A stretch of 64,000 nucleotides of DNA from Pyropia yezoensis (lineage: Eukaryota; Rhodophyta; Bangiophyceae; Bangiales; Bangiaceae). Of this stretch, positions 36,219 to 61,720 are shown piece after piece. The notes under the pieces are model-generated. The model saw only the letters and a list, made by a program, of their open reading frames with translations, made no database searches and was not told where the DNA came from. The stretch spans positions 16,415,346 through 16,479,345 of the forward strand of contig CM020618.1 of assembly GCA_009829735.1 (NCBI GenBank), written 5' to 3'. Every line of letters begins with the position of its first letter. The stretch's first letter is position 1. Both the position numbers and the translations under genes were made by a program.

Positions 36219-36231
36219 TTTCCCCCTTCTC
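36219..36231 (-). promoter_or_regulatory. Polypurine tract of element A
   Basis: TTTCCCCCTTCTC on the plus strand is a 13-nt purine run on the element's own strand, directly next to the 3' LTR. This is where plus-strand DNA synthesis would be primed, and it fixes the element's orientation as minus. Confidence 0.75.
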
Positions 36232-37190: not shown

Positions 37191-37223
37191 AACCTCACCG
37201 AGTCGGTCAAGGTTGGTCGCGTG

Positions 37224-42252: not shown

Positions 42253-45200
42253 TCATGGTTGGCTTGCCGCTCTGCTCTGACTTGGAGCAGGGACTTCATC
42301 CCCCGACGTACGAGTGCTACGTCGGCGTATAGATATGCCCACAGTCTGGCAGTATCTACGGACCTTCTCTACTGGTAGGTCCTCTACAAACTCCCATGTG
42401 TCGGAAGTTGGTCCATACCCGAACCACCTGACTCGGAGCATGAGTCGCCCCGACTCATCATATCCGTGCCCGACAAACTTGTCGAACACCGCCTCCAATG
42501 GCTTATTGGAAGAGGTCGGCAAGGATGGGACTTTCCATGCTTGCAAAGCCCTTTCCCAAGCGGGATCTCCCTCTGGGGGTTCGGGTGCGCGAGTCGCGTG
42601 ATTCCCATTTATTGTCCGGATACCATCATCACTCTCGATGGTTAACCGACGTCCATCCGTTTTAAGGATGTGATATGGTCCCAGAGTCTTGAAGACCAAT
42701 TTCCCTCCCTTATTGTCGTGGGAGTTAACATAAATCCAATCTCCAACTCGGAGCGGATCGCGACGATGTCTGACTCGGACATCGAAGTACCTCTTGTAAC
42801 GGGCTTGGGCCTTCTCCATAGTAGCCCGGACAAGGGGTATCATCTCCTCCAGTCTCTGGAGTAGGGAGGCTTTCGCCTGACTCGGTGTTTGAGTCGAAGT
42901 CTCACCCTCAGTTTGGGTGAGACGCTCCACAGCTACTGACGGAAGTCGTCGGGGGCAGACGAAGGCAAACGGTGCCTCTCCCGTACTACTGTGTACCTGG
43001 GAGTTGTATGCTGTCACGAGTAGTGACGCATAACGAGCCCATGTGACTACATGGTCATGGACATAGTGACGCAACTGGCGCACTAGAGTCCTGTTGAATC
43101 GTTCCACCTGCCCATTAGTCTGGGGATGGTAAGGGGTGGCGAAGTTCGTCTGCACCCCCAACATCTTCATGACTCCCTGATACAGGACGGACGCAAACTG
43201 TGGTCCGTTATCCGAAAGGATAGAGTCGGGGATGCCATAACTGGCAACCCAGACGTCGAGTAACTCACTCAGAACGTCCACGGCTGTGATATCCTTGAGT
43301 GGGGATACCCGTGTGAGCTTAGTGAAGCGATCACACATCACCAGAAGGTACTCATATCCTTCAGGTGTTCGTGGTAGTGGACCGAGTAAGTCCACTGCTA
43401 TCGCTGCAAACGGCTCTGTTGCAGGAAAGAGTCTCATGGAAGAAGTCTGCCGGGACTCCATGAGTCTATTCTTTGCGCAAGTCGCGCATGCGGCTACATA
43501 TCCGTACACATCAGCCACGAGTGATGGCCAATAGTACTTCTTACGTAGGGTCTGATACATCCTCGTAGACCCTGGGTGTCCACCCAACGGTGAGGAGTGC
43601 TCCCGTTGGAGGATACTCTTGCGTAACTCCTTGGGGACGACGACTTGCTTGTCCCCCTGGGTATATCCCTTACGGCAGAGTATGCCGTTGTCATTCAGGA
43701 AGAACCGAGTCGGTTGAGCCTGGTCGAGCTCCTTCCTGAGTCGTCGACAAAGTTTGTCGCTCTCCTGTGCCTGGACAAACTCATCCAAAGACACGGGTAA
43801 TAATTTGGCCATGCCAGGCATCCTCGGGTCGAGGACAGTTCCGGAGCGAGTGGTCACTGCCACATGAGGGAGTTCCTCAGGGATAGGGGAAGTGTCTTTC
43901 CCATCCGTCGGTATGCGAGACAACGCGTCCGCAACCGCATGCTTCGGGCCTGGCCGATATTCAACATCATAATCGAACTCAGCGAGGCAGAGTCGCCATC
44001 GATTGAGTCGGTTATTCGTACAGGCTGTAGTGGTGAGTATCCACTTCAAAGCCTTGTGGTCACATCGAATGAGGAACTTCCTTCCTTCGATGTATGGCCG
44101 TAGCATGGAGACTGCCCATACCACGCCAAGACCCTCTACCTCCGTCACAGAATAGTTCTTCTGGGCGGGTGAGAGTCCCTTACTGAAATAGCCAACGGGT
44201 AAATACTCCCCCGAAGGCTGTTGTTGGAGTAAGCAACAACCGAGTTGGTCGTAACTTGCGTCCACATCAACGATGTAGTGAGCCCCCGGTCTCGGGATCG
44301 CTAACACCGGTGGGTTGCAGAGGAGCTCTCGCAACCTATCAAACGCTTCTTGCTCCGGGGGTTTGGGAGCATCCAAGCGCTTGGGCATCTTGGAACTTAC
44401 CAAGTGGTTCAACGGTGCAGACACTTTGGCATAGTTCGCCACAAAGCGTCTGTATACGTTACACATACCCAGGAAGCTCCTGAGTTGTGTCTGCGTCTGG
44501 GGGAACTTCGCCCGACGGATGGCCATGAGGTTCTTCTCATTGACCAGAATGCGACCTGGCCGGACTATATGGCCGAGGTACTCCACCTCATTACTAAAGA
44601 GGTGACACTTCGTAGGTTTGAGTGTTACTCCTGCTTCACCCAACAGGGTAAACACTCTGTCCAAGTGGGACAAGTGTTCTTCGGCAGTCCCGGAGAACAC
44701 AATGATATCGTCCAGATACACCAGGGCGATCTGCCACTTGACTCCGGCAAGTATCAAGTCAATAGCACGCTGGAAAGTCGCAGGTGCATTGCAAAGCCCA
44801 AAAGGGAGCCGTGTACACTGATAAACTCCACAGTGACACGTGAAGGTGGTCAAGTGTCTGTCCTCCTTGCGGATGGGTATCTGCCAGTACCCCGCGTTGC
44901 AGTCCAACGTGGAAAAGTACTGTGCCTCACCGAGTGAGTCAAGGCAATCGTCCATACGGGGTAAGGGGTAACTATCCCTTACCGTCCGCTCGTTTAGCTT
45001 ACGATAATCGATGCAGAACCGCATCGTGCCGTCTGACTTGGGCACCAAGACTATGGGACTGGCCCACTCACTTGAGCAAGGCTCAATGACACCCATGTCT
45101 TGCATCCGTTGGACCTGCTCTCGGGTGAGTTCCCGTGAGTCTGGTCCCATACGGTAGGGACTCAGGCGAACTGGCCTAGCCCCTGGCTTCAACACGATTC

Positions 45201-46242
45201 TGTGTTCGGTGGCCTTGATGAGCCCAAGGTCACCATTCCACAACTTGTGATGCTTCTGGATTAACTCATCCAGTCGTCCATGTAAACACTCCGGGATGTT
45301 CTCCCGATGTACCGTCGGCGACTTAGCCGTCGATGAACTCGATTGGTCGGCAGAGCCTGCCATTCCAATATCCTCCCATTGCTGTTGAGTCACAGCAACG
45401 ACATTCCCCTCAAAGGTAGAGATCGACGCAATCTTCATGCCTCCGGGGAGTCGTCGAGGTTCCTCCGACGTGTTGAGGACCTCCACCCACCAGGTTTGGT
45501 CATCCCCACAAGTCATGGGGCCCCAAGCAACTTGCACTTGGTGAGTATAATAGACTCGGTCCACGGGGGAAACAAGTCCATTCCCTCGAAACCGTGTGCG
45601 TACTCGCACAAAGGTCCTTGATCGGGGCGGGACTACCGTACCCTTACATACTCGTACATGGGTCGTAGAGCCTCCACCCTTGGGAGAGTTTTCCCTAGGT
45701 TGATGAGTCGTAGGGGAAACAGTCCTCCCTTTACGCAATATGGGGACAGTCTCTCCATTACGCATTCGGATTATCCCTTCCGGTCCACAGACGGCCGGGA
45801 CATGGAGGTCCAGATAGTCAGTTCCCAGGAGTACGGGGACTGACATATTGGAGACTACTCCAAAGTTCACCTGCGTCTGGTAGAACCCAATGCAAACAGT
45901 CAATGCAATAGACCCAACAATGGGGAGGAGTCCCCCATTGACATCAAACATACGCCACTCGGGTGAGCCGGCGGGGCTCACATCTGTCCCCTCTGGCAAT
46001 AAGTCTTGCCTAATGAGAGAGGCAGCAGAGCCTGTGTCGACTATGACACGAGAGGTAAACTCATATCCATCCTGCAGCCAGAGTCGAGCTGCGACCTGGT
46101 AGTTACTCCCTACCAGCACTGACACAATCCGACTCGGGTCGTGTTTCTGAGGAGGGGCCTTGTCCCTAGGTCTCACCCCTCGAGGTCGAGTCAGGACCTT
46201 CACTCTCCCATGGGTCGGTGAGCGTGAAGCAACCCGCTTCAT
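42253..46242 (-). CDS. Element A Pol polyprotein: protease, RT, RNase H, integrase, chromodomain
   Basis: 1329 aa from the ATG at 46242, uninterrupted. Retropepsin has DTGS at 69-72. The RT has IDYRKLNERT, FSTLDCNAGYWQIPI and LPFGLCNAPATFQ, with the YLDD box at 509-512. RNase H starts near 655 (VDVDASYDQLG), with CDHKALKW (~727) and DALSRIP. The integrase zinc-binding set is H882, H889, C919 and C922, and the catalytic triad D951 (AVDLLGPLP), D1011 (SDNGPQF) and E1047 (NGQVERFN). A chromodomain covers ~1251-1297 (VFDKFVGHGYDESG, LRVRWFGYGPTSDTWEFVED), placing it among chromoviruses of the Ty3 group. The start lies 38 nt after the gag stop in a different frame, so Pol is made by a separate initiation or recoding event. 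Confidence 0.93.
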   Translation of the reverse strand: MKRVASRSPTHGRVKVLTRPRGVRPRDKAPPQKHDPSRIVSVLVGSNYQVAARLWLQDGYEFTSRVIVDTGSAASLIRQDLLPEGTDVSPAGSPEWRMFDVNGGLLPIVGSIALTVCIGFYQTQVNFGVVSNMSVPVLLGTDYLDLHVPAVCGPEGIIRMRNGETVPILRKGRTVSPTTHQPRENSPKGGGSTTHVRVCKGTVVPPRSRTFVRVRTRFRGNGLVSPVDRVYYTHQVQVAWGPMTCGDDQTWWVEVLNTSEEPRRLPGGMKIASISTFEGNVVAVTQQQWEDIGMAGSADQSSSSTAKSPTVHRENIPECLHGRLDELIQKHHKLWNGDLGLIKATEHRIVLKPGARPVRLSPYRMGPDSRELTREQVQRMQDMGVIEPCSSEWASPIVLVPKSDGTMRFCIDYRKLNERTVRDSYPLPRMDDCLDSLGEAQYFSTLDCNAGYWQIPIRKEDRHLTTFTCHCGVYQCTRLPFGLCNAPATFQRAIDLILAGVKWQIALVYLDDIIVFSGTAEEHLSHLDRVFTLLGEAGVTLKPTKCHLFSNEVEYLGHIVRPGRILVNEKNLMAIRRAKFPQTQTQLRSFLGMCNVYRRFVANYAKVSAPLNHLVSSKMPKRLDAPKPPEQEAFDRLRELLCNPPVLAIPRPGAHYIVDVDASYDQLGCCLLQQQPSGEYLPVGYFSKGLSPAQKNYSVTEVEGLGVVWAVSMLRPYIEGRKFLIRCDHKALKWILTTTACTNNRLNRWRLCLAEFDYDVEYRPGPKHAVADALSRIPTDGKDTSPIPEELPHVAVTTRSGTVLDPRMPGMAKLLPVSLDEFVQAQESDKLCRRLRKELDQAQPTRFFLNDNGILCRKGYTQGDKQVVVPKELRKSILQREHSSPLGGHPGSTRMYQTLRKKYYWPSLVADVYGYVAACATCAKNRLMESRQTSSMRLFPATEPFAAIAVDLLGPLPRTPEGYEYLLVMCDRFTKLTRVSPLKDITAVDVLSELLDVWVASYGIPDSILSDNGPQFASVLYQGVMKMLGVQTNFATPYHPQTNGQVERFNRTLVRQLRHYVHDHVVTWARYASLLVTAYNSQVHSSTGEAPFAFVCPRRLPSVAVERLTQTEGETSTQTPSQAKASLLQRLEEMIPLVRATMEKAQARYKRYFDVRVRHRRDPLRVGDWIYVNSHDNKGGKLVFKTLGPYHILKTDGRRLTIESDDGIRTINGNHATRAPEPPEGDPAWERALQAWKVPSLPTSSNKPLEAVFDKFVGHGYDESGRLMLRVRWFGYGPTSDTWEFVEDLPVEKVRRYCQTVGISIRRRSTRTSGDEVPAPSQSRAASQP

Positions 46243-46280: not shown

Positions 46281-48044
46281 CTAGGCGTTTCCCTCATCCG
46301 ACTCGGATGATGGTGTATCCTTGCCACTTGAGCTGGGGGAAGAGGTTTCCCCCTTCTCAAGCGTGGACTCATCCTCTGACTTAGGTTGAGTCATGGCCGT
46401 CACACGTGTGGTGTGTGGCCGGGTATCCGAATCAGTCCTCGGAATACCGAGCTTCCCAATACGAGCCAACAGGGCTCTCAAACGAACGTCCAGAGTGGGG
46501 CATTGGGCTGCCCAGTGTCCCGACTTGGAACACTGCCAACACGGCCGATCACTCATCGACGCCGATGGCCCCGCTTTTCCCTGTGACTTATCAGGGATGG
46601 CGGCCACCATACCTTCCGTCTCTCGAGTTGAGGACGAAGGTACTGCAGGGTACGTCCGCGTGTAGGAAGGCATCCTTGCAGTTCTGCGGAAGCGACTTGC
46701 TTCCATTCCCTTAACTTCTTTCTCTCGTTCCTTCCGCTGCTCAGACACGAGCCAGCGGTACTCATCACCCTTAGTCTGGGCGATGCGTGCCAACTCCGCC
46801 AGAGTCATGGTCGGAGTATTACGCTCTCGCACAGTCGCTCGAGCTGCTCGGTGGACACCCTCCACAAAGCGTCCCTTAATGACTCCTTGGGGATATAGGA
46901 ATCCACAGAGGACGTTCAGCTGACGGAGTCGTTCAGCGAACTCCCGTTCCTCTTCACCCTTACTCTGGGTGGCGCGGTTGAACTCTTCAACCTGCACAGC
47001 CAAGGAAGCCTCGTCTGCGTGAAGACGAAGGATCCAATTAACCAACTCCAGGTAGGAGGTCACCTCACCCGGATTCCCACCATGCCGACTTGGCATGACG
47101 TTCATCACCTCGGAGCGGAGTGGCTCCTTGGTGAAGTCCTGAAGCATGAAAAACGCTTCAGCTTCAGAGACATCATTGTCATCGCAGGCTTTTGCGAACT
47201 TCCGCAAAAACTGGAAGACCTTCAGGGGTGGAGTCCCGTCCCATTCTGAACGGACCCCGAAGGATTGCGCAACGTGTTTCTTGCGCCGGCCCAGGGTACG
47301 GGCCTGGCTATTTGAGTAGGTCAACGACTTGTTGACCAACCCATATGTCTCACAGTCGAAGACATCCTTGAACAATGGATTATTCACCACGATCTTTCCT
47401 GGGACGACTCTAGTCCCAAGACGGTCCGTGTGAGTCACACGACCATGTCGAGTAAGATCTTCTTCACCCGACTTGCCACTTGCAGAGGACTCAGACTCCG
47501 AGTCCACCTCACGACGGAGAGTACGTCGAATCTCCCGTCGCTTCTGACGCCTCGAGGCCTGCTCAGGCGGAGGGGTGCTCCCCTTCAACGCCTTCCCCAC
47601 CTCCTCTCGCACGACTTGTGCGATGGCAGTCATCACCGAGTTATCCACGATACCGGATGATCCAGGTGGAGCTTGACTCGAGCTCCCACCCGGTCCTTCC
47701 GGCACCAGTCGTGGCGCGGACCCACCAACCCGGGGTACAGAACTCCCTGTCCCGTCACCTCTGCCGGTCGGCGGTCCCATGCCGAAGTGAGTGTCGTCAC
47801 TCCCCGAAGAGGTTGCCGGAGCCTGACGCTGGCTCGGCGCTCCCACCGGAGAAGGGCGAACTCCGCCCGTCTCTTCCTGTGACGGCCTGGGAAGGAACCT
47901 GGCCGATCGCCATCGGGGTCCAACCTCTGGACCCACCACATCCGCACTGCCCGGCCTGGGTGGTACTCCGCCCGTCGGGGGAGGACTACGCTCCCCCTCC
48001 CCAGGTACACTCGGCGCAATGGGGGGGTCTCCCTCACCAGCCAT
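46281..48044 (-). CDS. Element A Gag with CCHC zinc knuckle
   Basis: 587 aa from the ATG at 48044 (MAGEGDPPIAPSVPGEGE). After a Pro/Gly/Ser-rich N-terminus and a basic-acidic segment, the retrotransposon gag core runs ~225-430 (FDCETYGLVNKSLTY, EWDGTPPLKVFQFLRKFAKA, EVTSYLELVNWILRL, FAERLRQLNVLCGFLYPQGV). One zinc knuckle, CWQCSKSGHWAAQC, follows near 515. The tail is Ser/Glu-rich and acidic (TPSSESDEGNA). The gag core is collinear with the element B Gag. Confidence 0.9.
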   Translation of the reverse strand: MAGEGDPPIAPSVPGEGERSPPPTGGVPPRPGSADVVGPEVGPRWRSARFLPRPSQEETGGVRPSPVGAPSQRQAPATSSGSDDTHFGMGPPTGRGDGTGSSVPRVGGSAPRLVPEGPGGSSSQAPPGSSGIVDNSVMTAIAQVVREEVGKALKGSTPPPEQASRRQKRREIRRTLRREVDSESESSASGKSGEEDLTRHGRVTHTDRLGTRVVPGKIVVNNPLFKDVFDCETYGLVNKSLTYSNSQARTLGRRKKHVAQSFGVRSEWDGTPPLKVFQFLRKFAKACDDNDVSEAEAFFMLQDFTKEPLRSEVMNVMPSRHGGNPGEVTSYLELVNWILRLHADEASLAVQVEEFNRATQSKGEEEREFAERLRQLNVLCGFLYPQGVIKGRFVEGVHRAARATVRERNTPTMTLAELARIAQTKGDEYRWLVSEQRKEREKEVKGMEASRFRRTARMPSYTRTYPAVPSSSTRETEGMVAAIPDKSQGKAGPSASMSDRPCWQCSKSGHWAAQCPTLDVRLRALLARIGKLGIPRTDSDTRPHTTRVTAMTQPKSEDESTLEKGETSSPSSSGKDTPSSESDEGNA

Positions 48045-48059
48045 CTCCACAAGAGTCAC

Positions 48060-48361
48060 GTGGAGTCAACCAAAACGACCAAACGGTGTCCAGAGTCGGG
48101 GATCGTCAGCTAGGGAGTTCCTAGAGCACGTTCCACCCCTCCACCTGCCTCAAGGAAGGCGGTGAGGTTTCCCGAAACTCCGGGTCTCCCACCAAGACTC
48201 ACGGTGGCCAACCTCGTCGCCCAGCGAACGCTCGGAACGTAGGCGAGTCGATCGTGTCACCGGAAGTCTCGGTGCCGAAGGGGGAGAGGGGCCAACTTGG
48301 TCCCGTCTCCGGTCAAGGGAGGTACCAAAGTCGATATCCTCTCCCCCGCTGATCCACCAAC
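48060..48361 (-). other. Element A leader between 5' LTR and gag
   Basis: 302 bp of non-coding leader on the element's strand, holding the primer-binding site next to the LTR. No other feature was recognised. Confidence 0.6.
48342..48359 (-). promoter_or_regulatory. Primer-binding site of element A
   Basis: Two bases inside the 5' LTR, the element strand reads TGGTGGATCAGCGGGGGA. The leading TGG complements the CCA end of a tRNA, and the rest fits an acceptor plus T-stem. The tRNA species cannot be named without comparing to the organism's tRNAs. Confidence 0.55.
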
Positions 48362-48900
48362 TGTAGCAGTACTCCCAAGCACCAACCCCGAGTCAGGGAA
48401 GGAAGAGGAGTATTGCCGATATCCCAACTTGGGACACCGGAAGCAAGCACCTCCACACAGCCGAACACGGAACTTGCGTGTGGTGAGCGGGTCCACTCAC
48501 CAAGGCACGAACAAGATGTGTCGGAGCCAGACGGTATTTTCTTGCTTGGCCAGCCAAGGTGGGCCCTCCCCGCCTTGCTGTCCCTCCTTATCAACCCTCC
48601 TCACACGCTCACGCAACCCCTCAAAACACTCAGAAAATGAACCCTCAAACAAACCAATCATATCACTCCACATGCAAAGAACTCAAAGCGTAGAAATCCG
48701 TCTGGCTCCCGTGCAAAAATCCCAAGAAACAAATACCAGCAGCATTACCCTGCTCTAGTATGTCGGAAGTCCTAGTCGAATTTCCGTCCAGAAGTCAGAA
48801 GTTTCACCATCGTGGGTCGGGTGAATTTCGACTTCCGGTCAGGTCCACTTGACCCGAATCTTCAAAGTATTGGTACCGAATTCCGGCCCAATCTCCCACA
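48362..48900 (-). repeat. Element A LTR, right copy (5' LTR of the element)
   Basis: 539 bp, same ends and sequence as 35680-36218. It is followed at once by CGGGC. Confidence 0.93.
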
Positions 48901-48905
48901 CGGGC
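48901..48905 (+). repeat. Target-site duplication of element A, right copy (CGGGC)
   Basis: Matches 35675-35679. Removing element A plus one copy rejoins the DIRS-like ORF1 Gly-rich tail in frame. Confidence 0.85.
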
Positions 48906-48955
48906 CAGGCAGCTGCCGGGGGCAACCCCAGCGGCAACTCCCAGTAATATCTACA

Positions 48956-50340: not shown

Positions 50341-50808
50341 TGTGGCAAAAACCACTCGCACACACAGTACCCAAGTTGGGGCGGTGTGCGAGGGCTGCCT
50401 CCCGTGTCGGGGGAACCGGAAGAAGTGCAAGTCGCACACACTCTATCCCTGTTGTGGGGCAATCCCCCCACGGACAAACAAGAAGATGGTGTGTGGTCCA
50501 ACAGTTTCTTGGTCGGGACGGGGACGCAGGGCCAAGCCCCGCTGTCCCTCCTCTTATCCCCCCAGGGTCCACTCAGAATCTCGCCACTCAGAATCTCCCA
50601 CCCCAGCACCTGCCCACCGGGCCACACGAAAATTCAAGACGATAAATGCAGAAAACCCTCAAATCCAAGTTGGATTTACTACTAAGCTAACTATCCCGAA
50701 CTTAGGGAATATGGACCCAAATGCAGGGGGAGGAACGGATCAGGCTAGTGGCCTGCCGCCCCTTGCATGGCACGTGTTGCCCCCTACCTGGGGGTCAATA
50801 CTGCCACA
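50341..50808 (-). repeat. Element B LTR, first copy
   Basis: 468 bp, begins TGTGGCAAAAACC and ends CAATACTGCCACA. It contains the hairpin AAATCC-AAGTT-GGATTT at 50661-50677 and CCC-AAGTT-GGG at 50370-50380. Confidence 0.92.
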
Positions 50809-50821
50809 CTCCCCTCTCCTC
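50809..50821 (-). promoter_or_regulatory. Polypurine tract of element B1
   Basis: CTCCCCTCTCCTC on the plus strand is purine-only on the element strand and abuts the 3' LTR, the standard plus-strand priming site. Confidence 0.75.
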
Positions 50822-51149
50822 AGTTCCGACCGACCCGGTCGGCCCTGTGAGGGGGTGCGTAAACGCACGTCTCGGCGTTGGGGGGGACGCGACTTGCTGT
50901 CCCCCCTTGAGTACGTAACGCGGATGTGGAGGCGGTCACGTTGGCCGCCCCTCTCCTCAAGCTTGCCCACTTGGCAGCTTGCTCTCCTCGGTTCACACCT
51001 CACCACCACCACCACTTCTCCTTCACCTTACACGGGGCCACCCCACGCTGGGGAGGCCACCCGTTTACCCACGATCCGAGTCCCCCTCAACTCGAGGCGG
51101 GTCTCGTGCCGCGATAGCCAGGACGTCTCTCCCCAACTTGGGGAGAGCC
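50822..51149 (+). other. Structured leader of the element B1 antisense ORF
   Basis: This non-coding leader has inverted repeats: 50855-50859/50864-50868 (GTGCG), 50881-50888/50899-50906 (GGGGGGAC, 10-nt loop) and 51127-51134/51140-51147 (CTCTCCCC, loop AACTT). The last hairpin ends two bases before the ATG. The equivalent leader of B2 spans 59449-59776 with the start hairpin at 59754-59774. Confidence 0.7.
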
Positions 51150-53093
51150 ATGGCGACTCCGGGAGTGGAGACGGACTCTCTCGATGAGCGTATGGAGGAC
51201 ACCTCCTACGGTGCAGCGCCTGCCGGGACTTCCGGCGGGGGCTCCGCGATCGCTCCGGGGGGTGGGACTCCCGCGTCACCCGGCTTTGGGTTGACGGCAG
51301 GATCTCCCCCGGAGGCGGGACAAGTTGTCCCGCGTGAGGCCTTGGGGCGGTGGTTTTACCCCGCTTGGCCTCTGTATGAGGAGGGGTTGACTGTTCTTCG
51401 CTGTGGCCGACTCGGCGCAGCGATGGGTCGGGTATGGGACCGCCTACGGGAGAAGTATCCCCGTAGGGTCGGGTTCCCTGCCGGCTTCAGGACGGACCAG
51501 TTTGCCTTCCTGGACGACGAGGAGGTCGAGGACGTGCAGCGGGCCAAGGCCATGGTGGACCGCGGGGGAACTATCCCGGGTCCCGGCGACTTGCCGACCT
51601 TCACTTGGGACGCGGTGGCAACTCGCCCCCCGTACCTTCACGAGGCCGATCCGCACACTCATCACTTTGATGTGCGGATGGAGAAGGACTTCCGGCGAGG
51701 TCCCTACTTGGTGACCTCGGCTCAACTTGAGTTTCCTCAGCAGTCTGCTGCCAGTAAGGAGCAATACTACCCGAAGAAGCCCGAGTGGTGGCCTCAAGTT
51801 GAGGTCCCCTACGGGTTCCCGGCATTGTTGCCACGGTTGCTTGACCACTTCGGCTCCGTCATGTTGACGGCTGGCCCTGATCATCTGGTGTGGGCCATGT
51901 TGGCCACCCAGTGGCTCCTCGAGGTCATGTCGACCTGGGTGTCATGTGTTCAGCGGCGGGGGATGCTCTGGCATCTCCCCCTCCGGCTCATCCAGGGTTT
52001 GGAACAGCTCACCCCTCAGCTAGTTGCTGAGGGGTGCTCGTCAGGACAACTCACTCTACTTGAGGAGATGCTCCGCCTCCACAAGTTTATCGAGTGGGAG
52101 AGCATTGAGCACAAGTTGCGCCGCCCCACTCGGGGGCCCAAGGACGATGGCGCACTTCGCCAGTTCGTGTGGGTCGCTCGTGAACTTCACGACGGCCGTG
52201 TGGTCCTACGAGAGGGGTTGGGCATCGGGGACTACCCGTATGCCCCGGGGGTGGATCGTCACACTGCGCCACCCCCGGACAAGCCCATAGTTATGGCTGT
52301 GCCCTCATATGATGACCATATGACTCAACCTACTGCGGGAGCCCCAAGTCGGGGTCGCAGTTACACCCGGGTACCGCCACCTCGGCGTGCCCCTCCGCTT
52401 CCTCCTGTTCCTTTCCAGCCTCACGGGAACATCCCGATCAGCGTGGCCGTGGAGTCATCCACACCGGTGTCCCCCAACTTGGGGGCCACCCTCCTGACGG
52501 TATACCCCAAGTTGGTGTTACCGCCCACGCCTCTAACCTCAGAGATGATGATCACCACGTTGGTGCGCACCATTTCCTGGTTGGCCGCGTCGACCGCAAC
52601 CCTCCAAAGTTCCGAGACTCCTCAACTTGAGGAGCGCGTTCGTACTGCAGTGGCGACCGCGAGTTGCGAGTCGGTGGCGGAGTTTATGACGGCCGAGTTG
52701 GCTCGCATTGGGGCTATTATGCCCCAGCCAACCCCACTTGGGCGTGGCAAGCGTCGTGCGAGCCGGGCATACTCGCCTCCTCGCCGTCGTCGCCGTCACT
52801 CGCGGCGCTCTCCCTCCGTGTCGGAAGACGAGTTGTCTTACTCCGTCTCGGAGTCCTCTACCCCATCGGAGACGGAGTCTGTCCAGCGTCTGCGTCGCAA
52901 ACTTGCGCGCAAGACCAGGCAGAAGAGTAGCCACGGTCGGCGCCACTTGCGCGACCGTGAGGGGCGCGACGGTTCCGACTTGGAGCCGCCGCCCCTTCCA
53001 ACGAGTGGAGACCGTTATCGGCGTGGGTCTCGCCGCTCGCCTCCACGTGAGGGCGAGGGCCGTGGAGTGGGAGAGTCTAGCATGCGTGCCTAG
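51150..53093 (+). CDS. Element B1 antisense accessory protein (647 aa, SR-like tail)
   Basis: The ATG at 51150 is in a GAGCCATGG context right after a hairpin. Blocks shared in order with the element A protein are PQVEVPYGFPALLPRLL and HFGSVM, WAMLATQWLLEV, GMLWHLPLRLIQGLE, FIEWESIEHKLRR, FVWVARELHDGRVVLREGLG and SPNLGATLL, plus a helical block (LVRTISWLAASTATL). Unlike A, the C-terminal ~110 residues (from ~530) are Arg/Ser-rich with RRRRRHSRRSPSVSEDE and many Ser/Thr-Pro or acidic Ser sites, like SR-type RNA-binding or nuclear proteins. No known enzymatic or membrane motif. It lies antisense to gag-pol between pol and the 3' LTR. Function unknown; nucleic-acid binding is a guess from the tail. 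Confidence 0.78.
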   Translation: MATPGVETDSLDERMEDTSYGAAPAGTSGGGSAIAPGGGTPASPGFGLTAGSPPEAGQVVPREALGRWFYPAWPLYEEGLTVLRCGRLGAAMGRVWDRLREKYPRRVGFPAGFRTDQFAFLDDEEVEDVQRAKAMVDRGGTIPGPGDLPTFTWDAVATRPPYLHEADPHTHHFDVRMEKDFRRGPYLVTSAQLEFPQQSAASKEQYYPKKPEWWPQVEVPYGFPALLPRLLDHFGSVMLTAGPDHLVWAMLATQWLLEVMSTWVSCVQRRGMLWHLPLRLIQGLEQLTPQLVAEGCSSGQLTLLEEMLRLHKFIEWESIEHKLRRPTRGPKDDGALRQFVWVARELHDGRVVLREGLGIGDYPYAPGVDRHTAPPPDKPIVMAVPSYDDHMTQPTAGAPSRGRSYTRVPPPRRAPPLPPVPFQPHGNIPISVAVESSTPVSPNLGATLLTVYPKLVLPPTPLTSEMMITTLVRTISWLAASTATLQSSETPQLEERVRTAVATASCESVAEFMTAELARIGAIMPQPTPLGRGKRRASRAYSPPRRRRRHSRRSPSVSEDELSYSVSESSTPSETESVQRLRRKLARKTRQKSSHGRRHLRDREGRDGSDLEPPPLPTSGDRYRRGSRRSPPREGEGRGVGESSMRA

Positions 53094-53204: not shown

Positions 53205-56200
53205 TCACGTTGAGGGAGGGCTGTTAGGGTCTATCTCGTTCCGGGCACAGTACGCCCGGACCTTCTCAGCAGGAAGGTCCTCCACATACTCCCACGTATC
53301 ATCCTTGGCTTTGTAGCCAAACCAACGCACCCTCAACATGAGGCGGTCAGTATCCTCATCCCAGCCGTGGTCGATGAACTTGTCGAACACGTACTCCTGC
53401 GGGCCCTGTTTGGCTGCAGGCAGCGAGGGCAGGCGCCACGTTTTCAAAGCACGCGCCCAAGCTGGGTCGCCTGCAGGCGGTGGTGCAACTTTGACCACGT
53501 CCTGTCCGTTCACTGTGCGGACCCCATCGTCACTTTCGATGGTGAAGCGCCGCCCATCAGTACGAAGGACCTGGTACGGCCCCTTCGTCTGGAACACCAA
53601 CTTACCCCCAGTTGGGGTGTGTGAGTGGACCAATACCCAGTCACCCTGCTCGGGGACATGCTTGGCGTTGCGCACCTTTTTGTCAAAGGTACGCTTGTAG
53701 CGCTTTTGTGCTTTGTCCATCTCAGCCCTGACTTTAGGGATGAGGTTTTCAAGCCTAGCAGCGAACTCCGCCTTACTCTCAGTAGGAGTGGGCGTACTGC
53801 CACCATCCTCCCTAGTTGGGAGCGGCCGCCGCACGGCAATAGACCGCACGCGACGGGGGGTCACAAAAGCGAGGGGTACTTCCCCGGTAGATGAGTGAAC
53901 CTGCGAATTGTAGGCAGTGGTCAGAATAGAAATGTATTGGTCCCACGTCTTCACGTGCTCACTCACATAATAGCGCAGCTGCCTAACAATAGTTTTGTTG
54001 AAGCGCTCCACCTGCCCATTAGTTTGTGGGTGGTAGGGGGTGGCATAGTTTGCCTTAACCCCCAACATATCCAGCACTCCTTGAAACAGTACAGACGCAA
54101 ATTGCGGTCCATTGTCCGATAGTGTACTATCCGGAATGCCATACGCGGCAACCCAGTGATCTAGGAAGGCTGACACGACCGACATGGCCGTGATCTCTGC
54201 CAGTGGGATCGCTCGCGTAAGTTTCGTGAAGCGGTCACAGATGACCAGGAGGTACTGGTTGCCCTCCTCGGTCACTGGCAGTGGCCCAAGGATGTCCATC
54301 GCCAACGCGGCGAAGGGCTCCTTGGCCGGGAACAATAGCATAGCCGTAGTAGGCCGCCGTTCCATCAGACGGTTCTGTGCACAACTTGTGCAGGCAGCCA
54401 CCCAACTGTAGATGTCCACCACCATGGACGGCCAGTAGTACCTGGTCCTCAGGGTCTGGTACAGTTTACTAGACCCCAGGTGTCCACCCGTGGGAGCGTT
54501 ATGCTCCCTCTCAAGGATACTGTCCTTGAGGGATGCGGGGACGACAAGTTGTTCAGCCCCTTGGAATACCCCCCTCCTCATGAGGAGGCCATCGTCTCCC
54601 AGAAAGAAACGCGTCTCCGCCACTGTATCCAGGGTATCCCTCTGCGACTTGCAGAAGGGATCCTCGGCCTGGGCCTTCACTACTTCGTCCAGGGACAGGG
54701 GCAAGTACTTCTTGTTCCCTGGAGCCTCGGGATTCAACGCCTGACCCGAGCGCGTGACTACCCCCACGATGGGGATGTCCTCATCGACTGGGGTGGTGTC
54801 CAGTCCCTCGGTAGGTACCCGAGAGAGGCCGTCGGCAAGGGCATGTTGCCTGCCAGGTCGGTACTCAATATCAAAGTTGAAGGGTGCAAGTCGCACCCTC
54901 CACCGGTTGAGACGAGTGTTCGTACAGTCCGTCTTGAAGATGAACTGCAACGCGCGGTGGTCACAGCGGATGAGGAACTTCTCACCCTCTAGGTAGTGAC
55001 GAAGTGACGTCACCGCCCATACCACTGCGAGTCCTTCCAACTCGGTGACTCCGTAGTTCTTCTCGGCCGAGTTTAGCCCCTTGCTGAAGTATGCCACCGG
55101 CAAGTACTCCTTGTCCGGCTGTTGCTGAAGCAACACACAACCAAGTTGGTCGTAGCTAGCGTCCACATCCAGGATGTAGTGGCCTCCCAACCTGGGAATA
55201 GCCAGGATAGGGGGCTTCAGCAGAAGGTCCCGAAGAGTCTCAAAGGATTCCTGCTCCACCCGACTTGGGGGAGGCAGGTTCTTCGGTAGCGTTGAGCTCA
55301 CTAACTCATTCAACGGCTTCGCCACTTTGGCGAAGCCCTTAGTGAAACGTCGGTACACGTTACACATCCCGAGGAAGCTCCTCATCTGGGTCTGGGTCCG
55401 GGGGTACTGAGCCTTGCGGATGGCCCTCAAGTTTTTCTCGTTGACACTGAGACGCCCCGGACGGACAACATGTCCCAAGTACTCCACCTCTTGAGTGAAG
55501 AGGTGGCACTTACTCGCCTTCAGTGACACTCCGGCGTCAGCAAGTAGCTTGAACACCTGGCCAAGATGGCCAATGTGTTCCTCCGGACTTCGGGAGAACA
55601 CAATGATATCGTCTAGGTACACGAGACAGATCTGCCACCGTACTCCGGCCAGAATCATGTCCATAGCGCGCTGGAAAGTTGCCGGCGCGTTACACAGGCC
55701 AAACGGTAGACGCTTGCACTGGTAGGTACCACAGTGACATGTAAAGGTAGTTTTATGCCTGTCCTCCGGGGCAATGGGAATTTGCCAGTACCCCGCGTTA
55801 CAGTCCAGGGTAGAGAACACGTTTGCCTCCCCCAGAGAGTCCAGACAGTCATCCATCCGAGGTAGGGGATAACTGTCCTTCACCGTGCTCTCGTTGAGCT
55901 TACGGTAGTCGATACAGAACCGGGGGGTCCCATCAACTTTGGGGACGATCACCACCGGACTCGCCCACTCGGCGTTGCTGGCCTCGATCACATCGAGGGC
56001 CTCCATGCGAGCAACTTGCTCCTTAACGAGGGCCCTTGAACGGGGTCCCCCCCTATACGGTTGTTGGCGTATAGGGGGCGCACCGGGTTTCAACTCGATC
56101 CGGTGTTGGGTAGCTCTCATGAGTCCCAATTGACCATCCCACAACTTGTGATATTGGTCCAAGAGGCGTTCAACTTGAACCCTCAACCTGGGTGGAACAC

Positions 56201-57188
56201 CCTCCATGTTTACCTGGGGCCGAGGAGAGGCGGCCGGCTTGGCTTGATGCTTCTCCTTTCCGGACTTCGGGTTGCTACTTGCGCCCGCGCTGAGGGTGAC
56301 CGCTACTACCGGTCCCTCGTGTTGGTCGATATAGCCGAACTTGGCCCCCGACTTGAAGAACTTGGGCGACGAGCTCAGGTTCATCACCTGGATCCTCCAC
56401 GGGACTCCGGCTTTGGAGTCCATCGTGCCCAGGGCAACATGCACTTGGTGCTTGCGAGCAAGACGGGGGTTAGGGTGCACCAACCCGTTCCCCGCATAAT
56501 CAGTTACAACATCCACGTGCGCCACCGAGTTGGGGGGCAACGTGACTTTACGGGCTAAACGCAGAGTAGCAGTAAACCCTTCCCTCACAGAACAAACAGG
56601 CTTCGACTGTGAAACTGTCACAGGAGCCACAGACTTTCCCTTACCAAGGATGGGGATAGTCTCCCCATTCATCAACTTGACCCAGTACTCAGGGCCACAA
56701 ATCAAAGGCACTTGTGTTACGACATAAGGGGTACCCAGAAGCAGGGGTACCGATATATTCTCAACTACACCATAGGTCACGTCGACCTCATGGGTCCCCA
56801 ACCGAGTTGGTAGGGTCACGGCACCAACGATGGGAAGTACCCCACCATTGATATCGATCAGATGGTCAGCTTTAGACTTCCAGCGTTGGAGCCTCATCCC
56901 CTTTGGTAATAGCGACATGCGTATCAAGGAGGCTCCTGACCCGGTATCAAGTACGATACGGACACAACAGGCGCGGCCGGGGGCAAGTTGCACCCGTCCA
57001 GCCACCTGGAAGTTCTCACCCGTCAGCACCGCGATGACCCGACGTGGGTTTACGTTCTTGGGAAGTCCCACCCGAGGTGGGCGGACTCCCTTAGGTCGCC
57101 GCAGTATCCGACACGGTCGGTTCGTCCTCTTGGCCCACTTGGCCGAGGCTGCCGTTGTGAGCTTCGGACGACCAGCTCCAACGGTCAT
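53205..57188 (-). CDS. Element B1 Pol polyprotein: protease, RT, RNase H, integrase, chromodomain
   Basis: 1327 aa, uninterrupted. Protease DTGS is at 81-84; RT has FCIDYRKLNESTVKDSY and FSTLDCNAGYWQIPI, with YLDD at 524-527; RNase H has LDVDASYDQLG and CDHRALQF. The integrase has the H/H/C/C finger (REHNAPTGGHLG, CTSCAQN) and a DDE triad in MDILGPLP, LSDNGPQF and NGQVERFN. The chromodomain is at the C-terminus (YVFDKFIDHGWDED, LRVRWFGYKAKDDTWEYVED). The ATG overlaps the gag stop as ATGA (57188-57185), which suggests termination-reinitiation coupling. Collinear with element A Pol but clearly a distinct family. Confidence 0.93.
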   Translation of the reverse strand: MTVGAGRPKLTTAASAKWAKRTNRPCRILRRPKGVRPPRVGLPKNVNPRRVIAVLTGENFQVAGRVQLAPGRACCVRIVLDTGSGASLIRMSLLPKGMRLQRWKSKADHLIDINGGVLPIVGAVTLPTRLGTHEVDVTYGVVENISVPLLLGTPYVVTQVPLICGPEYWVKLMNGETIPILGKGKSVAPVTVSQSKPVCSVREGFTATLRLARKVTLPPNSVAHVDVVTDYAGNGLVHPNPRLARKHQVHVALGTMDSKAGVPWRIQVMNLSSSPKFFKSGAKFGYIDQHEGPVVAVTLSAGASSNPKSGKEKHQAKPAASPRPQVNMEGVPPRLRVQVERLLDQYHKLWDGQLGLMRATQHRIELKPGAPPIRQQPYRGGPRSRALVKEQVARMEALDVIEASNAEWASPVVIVPKVDGTPRFCIDYRKLNESTVKDSYPLPRMDDCLDSLGEANVFSTLDCNAGYWQIPIAPEDRHKTTFTCHCGTYQCKRLPFGLCNAPATFQRAMDMILAGVRWQICLVYLDDIIVFSRSPEEHIGHLGQVFKLLADAGVSLKASKCHLFTQEVEYLGHVVRPGRLSVNEKNLRAIRKAQYPRTQTQMRSFLGMCNVYRRFTKGFAKVAKPLNELVSSTLPKNLPPPSRVEQESFETLRDLLLKPPILAIPRLGGHYILDVDASYDQLGCVLLQQQPDKEYLPVAYFSKGLNSAEKNYGVTELEGLAVVWAVTSLRHYLEGEKFLIRCDHRALQFIFKTDCTNTRLNRWRVRLAPFNFDIEYRPGRQHALADGLSRVPTEGLDTTPVDEDIPIVGVVTRSGQALNPEAPGNKKYLPLSLDEVVKAQAEDPFCKSQRDTLDTVAETRFFLGDDGLLMRRGVFQGAEQLVVPASLKDSILEREHNAPTGGHLGSSKLYQTLRTRYYWPSMVVDIYSWVAACTSCAQNRLMERRPTTAMLLFPAKEPFAALAMDILGPLPVTEEGNQYLLVICDRFTKLTRAIPLAEITAMSVVSAFLDHWVAAYGIPDSTLSDNGPQFASVLFQGVLDMLGVKANYATPYHPQTNGQVERFNKTIVRQLRYYVSEHVKTWDQYISILTTAYNSQVHSSTGEVPLAFVTPRRVRSIAVRRPLPTREDGGSTPTPTESKAEFAARLENLIPKVRAEMDKAQKRYKRTFDKKVRNAKHVPEQGDWVLVHSHTPTGGKLVFQTKGPYQVLRTDGRRFTIESDDGVRTVNGQDVVKVAPPPAGDPAWARALKTWRLPSLPAAKQGPQEYVFDKFIDHGWDEDTDRLMLRVRWFGYKAKDDTWEYVEDLPAEKVRAYCARNEIDPNSPPST

Positions 57189-58822
57189 TCGTTTCCCGCC
57201 GACTTGGCGTCCGAATCTGAGGGCGAAGGGGACGACGACGAGTCCGAGGACGACGTGTCCGCCCCCTCCGTCGAGGGTGTGGCGACCGCCACCACTGGTC
57301 GAGACCCACCCTCGCGGCGTGAACGCACTTCGTTCGTAGCCGACTTCTTACTCGCATTCCTAACAAGCTGTTGGATGCGTTTACTCAACTTGGGGCAATC
57401 ATATGCCCAGTGACCATCGGAGTTGCAGTTCCAACACCGATGATCAGTTCCCGGAGGGGTCTTCCCAACTGGGGAAGACGACGAGGTACCTTGGGAAGTT
57501 CCCACGGCAGCTACCACCCTCTCCTTGCGGATTCGGCGTGCCTCTCGCAACTCTCTGGCCTGGCGCGCCTCTTCCCGTTCCTTGGCCAACTCGGCCTGAC
57601 GCTCCTGGCGTTGTTCCTCCCGCAACTTGCGGTAGGCCTCGCCTCTGCGGTAGGCGAACCTGGCCAACTCGGCCAGGGTCGCCCGGGCAGTGTTATGCTC
57701 CCGGGTCTCCATGCGGACTGACCAATGGAGCCCCTCCACAAACCGACTCTTCACCACAGCTTGTGGATGAAGAAACCCACAAAGATTGTTGAGCTTACGA
57801 ACTCGCTCCGCAAAGGACAACTCGTCCTCAGCCTTTCCCTGGTGAGCTTGGGTAAACTCCTCAACTTGAGAAGCCAACGCTGCTTCATCCACCATGGCTC
57901 TCAACAACCAGTTGACGAGCTCCAAATAGGACGTCACCTCACCAGCGCCTCCACTTGAGGAGCTGGGCATGACGGACATAAGTTCTGTCCGTAGGTCGCC
58001 CTTCGTAAACTCCTGTAGCATGTAAAAAGCCATGCCTTTACTTATGGCATTGTCGTCACAGGCTTTTGTGAAACGACGTAGGAACTCAAAGACACGGAGG
58101 GGGGGAGTTCCATCCCACTCCGCTTTGTGCCCAAAAGAGTGAAGTGCATTCTTCTTGGCACGGCCCATGGCTCGGGCCTGGTCAGGACCATACGCCACCG
58201 ACTTGTTGTGGAGGGCGTAGGTCTCACAGTCAAAGATCCTCTGGTAGACCGGGTTGGCTACCTGGATCTTGGGCGGCACCTCACGTTGAGGGAACAGCCG
58301 CTGTGGCACTGGGGTAAGTTCACCCACAGTGCCTGTAGTCCGGCGCGGCGCGCTTGGTGTAGCCGCCGGTGTTGTCGGGGGGAACTCCCCCATGAAGGGC
58401 GTACGCCCCACCGAGTATGGTGTGGCTCCCTCGTTGGGAGTCACAGGGGTCGCCCCCTGTTCAGGGCGACCCGAGATAGGTGTCAGGGGGGGCACCCCCT
58501 GCGCCTGCGGGCTCGAAGGCCCCAATCCGGTCTGGACATTAAGGCCATCTGGCAAACTCGCCACAATCTGATTCAGAATAGTATTCGTCATCGTGACCAC
58601 CAGGTCCGGCAAAGTCTGCCGCAACACATTGGTCGCCTCCCGACGGACAGTTTCCGCGAGGAGTGGATTGACGACTCCAGTTGAGTCTCGGTCCACCTCC
58701 GGGAGTCCACCTGAGGGGTAACCACGTTCCTCAGGGGTCTCAACCGGGGGCATGGGCGCGAGCCCATCGCCGACCAACGGAGGTCCGCCGTCCTCCGAAA
58801 GCCTAGTTGGCGATGGCTCCAT
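57185..58822 (-). CDS. Element B1 Gag with CCHC zinc knuckle
   Basis: 545 aa from the ATG at 58822 (MEPSPTRLSEDGGPPLVGDG). The gag core has FDCETYALHNKSVAYG, EWDGTPPLRVFEFLRRFTKA, EVTSYLELVNWLLRA and FAERVRKLNNLCGFLHPQAV. A long charged helix follows (QERQAELAKEREEARQAREL), then the zinc knuckle CWNCNSDGHWAYDC. The tail is Ser/Asp-rich (SSDSSSSPSPSDSDAKSA). The stop overlaps the pol start by four bases. The open frame extends upstream into the LTR, but the Met at 58822 is the first inside the element. Confidence 0.9.
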   Translation of the reverse strand: MEPSPTRLSEDGGPPLVGDGLAPMPPVETPEERGYPSGGLPEVDRDSTGVVNPLLAETVRREATNVLRQTLPDLVVTMTNTILNQIVASLPDGLNVQTGLGPSSPQAQGVPPLTPISGRPEQGATPVTPNEGATPYSVGRTPFMGEFPPTTPAATPSAPRRTTGTVGELTPVPQRLFPQREVPPKIQVANPVYQRIFDCETYALHNKSVAYGPDQARAMGRAKKNALHSFGHKAEWDGTPPLRVFEFLRRFTKACDDNAISKGMAFYMLQEFTKGDLRTELMSVMPSSSSGGAGEVTSYLELVNWLLRAMVDEAALASQVEEFTQAHQGKAEDELSFAERVRKLNNLCGFLHPQAVVKSRFVEGLHWSVRMETREHNTARATLAELARFAYRRGEAYRKLREEQRQERQAELAKEREEARQARELREARRIRKERVVAAVGTSQGTSSSSPVGKTPPGTDHRCWNCNSDGHWAYDCPKLSKRIQQLVRNASKKSATNEVRSRREGGSRPVVAVATPSTEGADTSSSDSSSSPSPSDSDAKSAGNE

Positions 58823-58952
58823 GCCAAAGTTGGCTCCAACCCGAGTGGAACTCGCGGGGACAGTCCTCACCCCTTGGGACGTTCCCGTTGAGTATACCAC
58901 GCGGTGGCCAGACTTCGGCCCACCCACGTCAGAAGTGTCACCCGAGTGAACT

Positions 58953-58967
58953 CCCGACTGAGTCGGG
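58953..58967. repeat. 15-bp palindrome at the primer-binding-site position of element B1
   Basis: CCCGACT (58953-58959), G, AGTCGGG (58961-58967) lies flush against the 5' LTR. Priming normally requires a TGG-led tRNA complement here, and none is present. Confidence 0.8.
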
Positions 58968-59435
58968 TGTGGCAAAAACCACTCGCACACACAGTACCCA
59001 AGTTGGGGCGGTGTGCGAGGGCTGCCTCCCGTGTCGGGGGAACCGGAAGAAGTGCAAGTCGCACACACTCTATCCCTGTTGTGGGGCAATCCCCCCACGG
59101 ACAAACAAGATGATGGTGTGTGGTCCAACAGTTTCTTGGTCGGGACGGGGACGCAGGGCCAAGCCCCGCTGTCCCTCCCCTTATCCCCCCAGGGTCCACT
59201 CAGAATCTCGCCACTCAGAATCTCCCACCCCAGCACCTGCCCACCGGGCCACACGAAAATTCAAGACGATAAATGCAGAAAACCCTCAAATCCAAGTTGG
59301 ATTTACTACTAAGCTAACTATCCCGAACTTAGGGAATATGAACCCAAATGCAGGGGGAGGAACGGATCAGGCTAGTGGCCTGCCGCCCCTTGCATGGCAC
59401 GTGTTGCCCCCTACCTGGGGGTCAATACTGCCACA
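58968..59435 (-). repeat. Element B LTR, shared between the tandem copies B1 and B2
   Basis: 468 bp, same ends as 50341-50808. It acts as 5' LTR of B1 and 3' LTR of B2. The polypurine tract of B2 follows at 59436-59448. Confidence 0.92.
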
Positions 59436-59776
59436 CTCCCCTCTCCTCAGTTCCGACCGACCCGGTCGGCCCTGTGAGGGGGTGCGTAAACGCACGTCTC
59501 GGCGTTGGGGGGGACGCGACTTGCTGTCCCCCCTTGAGTACGTAACGCGGATGTGGAGGCGGTCACGTTGGCCGCCCCTCTCCTCAAGCTTGCCCACTTG
59601 GCAGCTTGCTCTCCTCGGTTCACACCTCACCACCACCACCACTTCTCCTTCACCTTACACGGGGCCACCCCACGCTGGGGAGGCCACCCGTTTACCCACG
59701 ATCCGAGTCCCCCTCAACTCGAGGCGGGTCTCGTGCCGCGATAGCCAGGACGTCTCTCCCCAACTTGGGGAGAGCC

Positions 59777-61720
59777 ATGGCGACTCCGGGAGTGGAGACG
59801 GACTCTCTCGATGAGCGTATGGAGGACACCTCCTACGGTGCAGCGCCTGCCGGGACTTCCGGCGGGGGCTCCGCGATCGCTCCGGGGGGTGGGACTCCCG
59901 CGTCACCCGGCTTTGGGTTGACGGCAGGATCTCCCCCGGAGGCGGGACAAGTTGTCCCGCGTGAGGCCTTGGGGCGGTGGTTTTACCCCGCTTGGCCTCT
60001 GTATGAGGAGGGGTTGACTGTTCTTCGCTGTGGCCGACTCGGCGCAGCGATGGGTCGGGTATGGGACCGCCTACGGGAGAAGTATCCCCGTAGGGTCGGG
60101 TTCCCTGCCGGCTTCAGGACGGACCAGTTTGCCTTCCTGGACGACGAGGAGGTCGAGGACGTGCAGCGGGCCAAGGCCATGGTGGACCGCGGGGGAACTA
60201 TCCCGGGTCCCGGCGACTTGCCGACCTTCACTTGGGACGCGGTGGCAACTCGCCCCCCGTACCTTCACGAGGCCGATCCGCACACTCATCACTTTGATGT
60301 GCGGATGGAGAAGGACTTCCGGCGAGGTCCCTACTTGGTGACCTCGGCTCAACTTGAGTTTCCTCAGCAGTCTGCTGCCAGTAAGGAGCAATACTACCCG
60401 AAGAAGCCCGAGTGGTGGCCTCAAGTTGAGGTCCCCTACGGGTTCCCGGCATTGTTGCCACGGTTGCTTGACCACTTCGGCTCCGTCATGTTGACGGCTG
60501 GCCCTGATCATCTGGTGTGGGCCATGTTGGCCACCCAGTGGCTCCTCGAGGTCATGTCGACCTGGGTGTCATGTGTTCAGCGGCGGGGGATGCTCTGGCA
60601 TCTCCCCCTCCGGCTCATCCAGGGTTTGGAACAGCTCACCCCTCAGCTAGTTGCTGAGGGGTGCTCGTCAGGACAACTCACTCTACTTGAGGAGATGCTC
60701 CGCCTCCACAAGTTTATCGAGTGGGAGAGCATTGAGCACAAGTTGCGCCGCCCCACTCGGGGGCCCAAGGACGATGGCGCACTTCGCCAGTTCGTGTGGG
60801 TCGCTCGTGAACTTCACGACGGCCGTGTGGTCCTACGAGAGGGGTTGGGCATCGGGGACTACCCGTATGCCCCGGGGGTGGACCGTCACACTGCGCCACC
60901 CCCGGACAAGCCCATAGTTATGGCTGTGCCCTCATATGATGACCATATGACTCAACCTACTGCGGGGGCCCCAAGTCGGGGTCGCAGTTACACCCGGGTA
61001 CCGCCACCTCGGCGTGCCCCTCCGCTTCCTCCTGTTCCTTTCCAGCCTCACGGGAACATCCCGATCAGCGTGGCCGTGGAGTCATCCACACCGGTGTCTC
61101 CCAACTTGGGGGCCACCCTCCTGACGGTATACCCCAAGTTGGTGTTACCGCCCACGCCTCTAACCTCAGAGATGATGATCACCACGTTGGTGCGCACCAT
61201 TTCCTGGTTGGCCGCGTCGACCGCAACCCTCCAAAGTTCCGAGACTCCTCAACTTGAGGAGCGCGTTCGTACTGCGGTGGCGACTGCGAGTTGCGAGTCG
61301 GTGGCGGAGTTTATGACGGCCGAGTTGGCTCGTATTGGGGCTATTATGCCCCAGCCAGCCCCACTTGGGCGTGGCAAACGTCGTGCGAGCCGGGCATACT
61401 CGCCTCCTCGCCGTCGTCGCCGTCACTCGCGGCGCTCTCCCTCCGTGTCGGAAGACGAGTTGTCTTACTCCGTCTCGGAGTCCTCTACCCCATCGGAGAC
61501 GGAGTCTGTCCAGCGTCTGCGTCGCAAACTTGCGCGCAAGACCAGGCAGAAGAGTAGCCACGGTCGTCGCCACTTGCGCGACCGTGAGGGGCGCGACGGT
61601 TCCGACTTGGAGCCGCCGGCCCCGCCGACTGGTGGGGAGCGTTATCGAAGTGGGTCTCGCCGCTCGCCTCCACGTGAGGGCGAGGGCCGTGGGGTTGGAG
61701 AGTCTAGCACGCATGCCTAG
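59777..61720 (+). CDS. Element B2 antisense accessory protein (647 aa)
   Basis: Same length and nearly the same sequence as the B1 protein. Differences cluster in the last ~45 codons (B1 PPLPTSGDRYRRGS versus B2 PAPPTGGERYRSGS; B1 SSMRA versus B2 SSTHA) plus one Thr/Ala change before PLGRGKRR. The frame is open without indels. The same hairpin (59754-59774) precedes the ATG. Confidence 0.78.
   Translation: MATPGVETDSLDERMEDTSYGAAPAGTSGGGSAIAPGGGTPASPGFGLTAGSPPEAGQVVPREALGRWFYPAWPLYEEGLTVLRCGRLGAAMGRVWDRLREKYPRRVGFPAGFRTDQFAFLDDEEVEDVQRAKAMVDRGGTIPGPGDLPTFTWDAVATRPPYLHEADPHTHHFDVRMEKDFRRGPYLVTSAQLEFPQQSAASKEQYYPKKPEWWPQVEVPYGFPALLPRLLDHFGSVMLTAGPDHLVWAMLATQWLLEVMSTWVSCVQRRGMLWHLPLRLIQGLEQLTPQLVAEGCSSGQLTLLEEMLRLHKFIEWESIEHKLRRPTRGPKDDGALRQFVWVARELHDGRVVLREGLGIGDYPYAPGVDRHTAPPPDKPIVMAVPSYDDHMTQPTAGAPSRGRSYTRVPPPRRAPPLPPVPFQPHGNIPISVAVESSTPVSPNLGATLLTVYPKLVLPPTPLTSEMMITTLVRTISWLAASTATLQSSETPQLEERVRTAVATASCESVAEFMTAELARIGAIMPQPAPLGRGKRRASRAYSPPRRRRRHSRRSPSVSEDELSYSVSESSTPSETESVQRLRRKLARKTRQKSSHGRRHLRDREGRDGSDLEPPAPPTGGERYRSGSRRSPPREGEGRGVGESSTHA

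Follow-up and report, generated by a model that had tools for sequence, protein, structure and literature searches.

What is the long plus-strand open reading frame (ORF) between two retrotransposon features of the Pyropia yezoensis genome, and what would its product do? The window, by which we mean the whole stretch of 64,000 nucleotides that was analysed, holds two LTR-retrotransposon families, A and B, each with one long ORF opposite to the gag-pol strand, between pol and the 3' LTR. An earlier note, made from the letters of the window, took these ORFs (aORFs) for a conserved antisense protein family. The host genome (107.5 Mb in 11 contigs, as searched here) is rich in such elements: according to the accessible text of PMC7423979, repeats make up 48% of it, with LTR elements predominant.

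Two element families with one gene arrangement

In element A, gag (46281..48059; zinc knuckle of 20.0 bits, slightly under the Pfam cut-off of 20.8) and pol (42253..46242; reverse transcriptase (RT), RNase H, integrase and a weak chromodomain by Pfam) lie on the minus strand, and the aORF lies antisense to them on the plus strand at 40208..42124 (638 aa). The LTR at 48361..48900, also on the minus strand, is the 5' LTR in the gag-pol sense. The 3' LTR is visible at 38706..39204 (minus strand); its remainder falls inside a 500-N assembly gap (38206-38705), which interrupts this left LTR. On the far side of the gap, a second copy of A is present in part (35679-38205), and the apparent duplication across it may be an assembly matter.

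Family B is represented by the copies B1 and B2. B1 comprises a 3' LTR with TG...CA ends (50341..50809, minus strand), the plus-strand aORF (51150..53093; 647 aa, from the ATG at 51150 to the stop at 53093), pol (53205..57188, minus strand, with the same domains as that of A, the weak chromodomain included) and gag (57185..58965, minus strand, with a zinc knuckle), whose start codon is provisional owing to a deletion at 58967/58968. The LTR at 58968..59436 (minus strand) is common to B1 and B2. At this junction (58967-58968), B1 is without about 280 bases beside the LTR that are present in L010-L012. B2 continues with its own aORF (59777..61720, plus strand; protein 98.8% identical to that of B1) and a minus-strand pol cut by the window end (61832..63994). 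A different RT fragment occupies 48901-50340 on the plus strand, between A and B; it is 25% identical to the A pol, and its RVT_1 score of 28.0 bits is under the cut-off. Genome-wide, 301 candidate relatives of this fragment were found, of which 136 were scored. Elsewhere, at positions 202-2802 of L078, a stretch of 2.6 kb forms a rearranged array of three B LTRs, which differ in orientation and are separated by other B pieces.

The earlier note had described the LTRs as different and gag and pol as divergent. Indeed, blastn at 1e-10 gave no match between the A and B LTRs, and the two families are 60% identical in pol and 51% in gag over 325 aa; the position of the aORF, as described there, is the same in both. 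As to the label of chromovirus, a Chromo match (PF00385) sits at the expected position at the integrase end of the A and B pols, but its scores (19.5 and 16.7 bits) are under the Pfam cut-off of 25.1.

The antisense products are homologous and match no family in the libraries searched

The A and B products align with 37% identity over 288 aa (BLASTP, E 1e-45). The raw score in the plus frame is 443, against a mean of 52 (sd 7.6) and a maximum of 76 for 300 shuffled sequences, so that the comparison with shuffled sequence proposed in the earlier note comes out clearly in favour of homology. The next-best pair of frames is the complement frame, which scores 292 and contains 16 stops in A and 25 in B. 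The matching part corresponds to a conserved domain at 40619..41473 in A (plus strand, tblastn of B against the window) and 51432..52274 in B (plus strand, BLASTP and tblastn against A). Within the product of about 640 aa, this single domain has proline-rich flanks on either side, and its invariant core in seven sequences reads roughly YP...VE(V/I)PxGF.P...P...W...V...LW.L. All the shared blocks named in the earlier note (EVPxGFPA, FGSV, LATxW, LWHLP, REGLG and PNLGA) are present, although the last overlaps a DNA palindrome that is found in the LTRs as well; PNLGA may thus be partly a DNA feature and not a protein block throughout.

The frame of A is open from 39749. Its start was set at the ATG at 40208 (MAGEP...) because this codon and the next 36 are free of stops and indels in all 51 other loci compared (L014-L062, L071, L076) and because the proteins P0005 and P0010 start at the same place. 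Many older A copies show a stop within the searched stretch; only two copies have stops after 40208, so the stops of the older ones must sit upstream of it.

The earlier note did not recognise the protein, and neither does any library that we searched: Pfam, scanned at E 10 with 7 and 10 members, gave no family, NCBIfam no match at E 1, and PDB nothing credible (best E 0.46 and 0.5). Two matches in PHROGs were at chance level, and a scan of IMG/VR gave 278 pattern stretches with none confirmed. A likeness in layout (GF...P...LW) to Transposase_28, the antisense domain of plants, was dropped since the profile (PF04195) matched neither the genome, searched in full at E 10, nor the 7 and 10 members. 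AlphaFold2 models from alignments of 3 and 9 sequences had a mean pLDDT of 33 and 36, too low for use. Neither the A nor the B product contains a CxxC motif, a zinc knuckle or a membrane-like segment (hydropathy over 19 residues peaks at 1.38 and 1.23, respectively). The B protein (pI 9.3) has an arginine-rich tail, with a net charge of +11 over the 20 residues 534-553 (52749..52808, plus strand), which is a possible nuclear or nucleic-acid-binding signal as far as its composition goes; the A protein (pI 6.7) is without such a tail.

The frame is open in most copies examined and under purifying selection

Among 3674 candidate B copies, the ORF was open in all 68 that were scored. In A, 49 further copies (the 30 best matches without the one in the window, and 20 that were chosen) contained a stop in two cases and an indel in none over 1800 nt. 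The earlier note had asked whether the ORF is absent from most intact copies of the families; it is open in these B copies and free of stops in 47 of the 49 A copies, although both sets were picked by protein match and therefore favour intact copies. Seen from the RT side, the aORF motif stands at the expected distance in 49 of 100 places with an RT motif, a count in which other families and truncated copies are included.

The pattern EVPxGFPA occurs 1096 times in the genome and its reversed control not once. At 33 of 40 of these places (first 3.54 Mb of C1), the RT motif VYxDDI is found on the opposite strand 3.66-3.87 kb downstream; at the same 40 places it was never found on the same strand and once upstream. 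With a stricter RT motif, 49 of 80 places had it opposite to EVPxGFPA.

Substitution patterns point the same way. Between B and L064, dN is 0.007 and dS 0.126, a ratio of 0.06 where neutral simulations give about 0.9; third codon positions hold 58 of the 69 changes, and among all six frames that of B has the most synonymous changes. The ratio is 0.25 between A and L071 (88% identical, no stop, no gap) and 0.26 between B and L075 (86%, no stop), against neutral simulated averages of 0.91 and 0.86, respectively. L075 has a valine codon in place of the ATG of B, with the frame otherwise kept. For L073 (601 of 647 codons) the ratio is 0.23, and for the broken or partly matching copies L063 and L065-L070 it ranges from 0.09 to 0.49. 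These values cover 11 of the 15 loci L063-L077; four with broken frames (L072, L074, L076, L077) were left out. Within A, fixed differences between subfamilies number 16 synonymous to 8 nonsynonymous, versus 86 to 120 within both (pooled, Fisher p 0.029); taken singly, the subfamilies show 28:36 and 58:84 (p 0.093 and 0.026). The ratio between A and B themselves was not used because dS is saturated (18 by maximum likelihood, 1.7 by NG86).

The selection on the protein that the earlier note had deduced from its retention is thus borne out: dN/dS in the open-frame loci L064, L071 and L075 is 0.06-0.26, not near 1. Purifying selection on the protein is established in A and B, and a third branch of the family in this genome, C, is homologous to them. 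That the antisense ORF is a gene under selection is, in our judgement, nearly certain.

A third branch and relatives in Pyropia vietnamensis

The family extends beyond the two proteins, to branch C in the same genome and to relatives in P. vietnamensis. Branch C is abundant. A broken copy of it lies in L080 (1222-3521), and L081 holds an open piece of 320 aa; C is 25% identical to B over 138 aa (E 3e-7) and scores 48.9 bits against the A and B profile, where the best of 2500 shuffled sequences reached 7.1. Of 667 candidates genome-wide, 134 were scored and all 134 matched. C lies opposite VYxDDI at a near-constant distance in five of the eight places checked, and in three it does not. The RT fragment of 48901-50340 and the best RVT_1 matches were also tried as partners of C; judged by eye, their place lists had no constant neighbourhood, whereas VYxDDI had one.

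Words from residues 95-480 of A retrieved at least seven relatives (about 8000 candidates scored), namely four hypothetical proteins of P. vietnamensis, two proteins from lgn-marked sources and one that is ena-marked. Searches with P0002 and with alignment A1 returned P0003 alone among about 8000 candidates scored each. A is 55-59% identical to the P. vietnamensis relatives; over the domain, its identity to them (59%) exceeds that to B (36%) and to C (27%). It is therefore probable that the A and B types split before the species did, unless elements moved between them. In the tree, long branches lead to B and C, and the order of these two is provisional (support 0.72-0.84). The antisense placement between pol and the 3' LTR is seen directly for A and B; what is seen for C is its position opposite an RT motif, and P. 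vietnamensis is represented by sequences alone.

A palindrome shared by LTRs, leader and coding sequence

The palindrome CCCAASTTGGG occurs 10 times exactly in the window, where 0.08 are expected, always within the elements and never in the first 35.6 kb. The ten correspond to five distinct sites, the others being second copies. One is CCCAACTTGGG in the A LTR (48423..48433; also at 38726 and 35741) and another CCCAAGTTGGG in the B LTR (50370..50380; also at 58997). The leader of B carries CCCAACTTGGG on the plus strand at 51132..51142, ending 7 nt before the aORF ATG, and this site lies within a perfect 21-nt inverted repeat (51127-51147), which stops 2 nt short of the ATG. The remaining two fall on the PNLGA codons of the aORFs, at 41720..41730 in A and 52473..52483 in B; the PNLGA peptide is kept in P. 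vietnamensis too.

Among the 1024 palindromes of this form, CCCAASTTGGG is joint first by exact count in A and B; with one mismatch allowed, it ranks first in B and fourth in A. The genome contains 4776 occurrences versus 53 of the reversed pattern, an excess that is probably mostly due to copy number. In the aORF, the pol and the gag of B, occurrences of CCCAASTTGGG or the form CTCAASTTGAG outnumber those in 60 synonymous shuffles. Compared with the best that any palindrome reached in the shuffles, B is higher in pol and gag; the aORF is higher by exact count only, its one-mismatch count merely equalling that best. A has one palindrome per LTR and one in the aORF, with none in gag-pol even when one mismatch is allowed, and the degenerate C stretch of L080 has none. 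Since it is sparse in A and absent from that C stretch, the palindrome may belong to a host factor. The sister palindrome CTCAASTTGAG is found exactly at 51721, 51793, 52621 and 57860 in B1 and nowhere in A. Two ACCGAGTCGGT palindromes lie at 40113-40191, in imperfect tandem repeats directly before the start codon of A, with another at 43704.

Possible role of the antisense protein

Taken together, the best overall explanation, which we hold tentatively and at somewhat less than an even chance, is a selected antisense accessory gene whose product is a nuclear, sequence-specific regulator of its own element. Related LTR-retrotransposon families of the red alga carry this accessory gene opposite to gag-pol, with pol on one side of it and the 3' LTR on the other, as seen in A and B. 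A plus-strand transcript would probably be made from a promoter that lies within the 3' LTR or in the leader upstream of the ATG; the protein would act in the nucleus and read CCCAASTTGGG in the LTR, upstream of its own start codon and elsewhere in the element, and this reading would tune transcription or counter silencing of the element. The specific mechanism through CCCAASTTGGG, which we derive from sequence, is tenable but rather doubtful. The enrichment of the palindrome in the window, in the genome and in the aORF, pol and gag of B is consistent with it, as are the arginine-rich tail and pI of the B protein and, in a plant analogue, the nuclear location and own promoter of the antisense protein of Grande (in the accessible part of PMC7264820). 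Against it stand the A protein, which is not basic overall and has no such tail, the absence of any known DNA-binding domain in the Pfam, NCBIfam and PDB searches, the sparseness of the palindrome in A and its absence from the C stretch of L080, as well as its fourth rank in A and the one-mismatch count of the B aORF.

It is somewhat unlikely, but a serious alternative, that the protein is a selected accessory factor working without the palindromes, for instance as an inhibitor of a host protein of silencing or RNA decay, while a host transcription factor binds the palindromes. Purifying selection tells us no more than that the protein is important, and the palindrome is missing from the gag-pol of A and from the C stretch seen; its presence in the otherwise unmatched LTRs of A and B, beside the start codon of B and within the aORF, suggests instead a link with the gene. 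For a structural protein (capsid-, envelope- or movement-like) that aids particle formation or cell-to-cell passage, the length and conservation of the product could be invoked, together with a mostly helical fold in the low-confidence prediction. However, the lack of a membrane-like segment and of CxxC, the lack of any gag or env profile match and the need for an mRNA of its own imposed by antisense coding make such a role improbable. We regard as similarly improbable the capture of a host gene domain of ordinary cellular function that is simply carried along. LTR elements are known to capture genes (PMC7264820, in its accessible part), and four relatives appear as genes in the P. vietnamensis annotation, but Pfam, NCBIfam and PDB hold no credible relative and the three divergent branches each exist in several copies that are found opposite RT motifs. 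Finally, retrotransposon antisense transcripts may act as RNA, as what is available of PMC7264820 has it, and double-stranded RNA or interference could be the function here with the reading frame as a by-product. The clustering of the B/L064 changes at third codon positions, the dN/dS of 0.06-0.26 and the lack of indels in 49 other A copies render this extremely unlikely.

Relation to known antisense genes

The kind of gene, an ORF antisense to gag-pol with pol and the 3' LTR as its neighbours, is already known from flowering plants; the earlier note had pointed to some plant Ty3 lineages. The accessible text of PMC7264820 and PMC11963269 lists such additional ORFs (aORF-3R) for the Ty3 elements Grande (gene23), RIRE2, Retand and PvRetro13, and the algal genes share with them one long ORF in this position that is kept across families. 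They differ in their red-algal host and in a protein without Pfam match; Transposase_28, the usual domain of Retand, was not found in the genome. Moreover, Retand belongs to a non-chromovirus lineage, whereas the algal pol ends in a weak, sub-threshold chromodomain. Retroviral antisense genes such as that of HTLV (PMC7264820, PMC11963269, as far as their accessible text goes) likewise encode a protein in antisense, close to the 3' LTR; the likeness drawn here is one of position, and the algal ORF lies tail to tail with pol without overlap. Among the titles and abstracts listed from the open-licence literature, we found no description of such an antisense gene in red algae or of this antisense protein family.

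A further comparison, by analogy only, can be made with the VANDALs. These are DNA transposons. In Arabidopsis, the anti-silencing VANDAL protein VANC (PMC5735166, accessible part) resembles the algal case in that an element-encoded accessory protein coexists with a short element-enriched motif; there, the motif stands in tandem repeats and binding was shown, whereas palindrome binding by the algal protein is a guess. On this analogy, one might imagine an independently evolved self-regulating or anti-silencing system, in which an antisense-coded protein recognises CCCAASTTGGG in its own LTR, promoter and coding sequence; we consider it unlikely. If true, it would follow a VANC-like logic, with retrotransposons as the carriers and a protein that is not related to VANC.

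The roles of the antisense genes in Grande and RIRE2 are described as undetermined in the accessible part of PMC7264820. The algal elements, which are near-identical and high in copy number, add another antisense protein family from a distant group of hosts, with clear selection and a candidate DNA target, and it is the proof of selection together with this candidate target that makes the question of the role of antisense genes testable. On the side of annotation, P0006, P0007, P0008 and P0010 are relatives of the element protein that stand as hypothetical in the P. vietnamensis gene set, which element genes may, to judge from these sequences, inflate.
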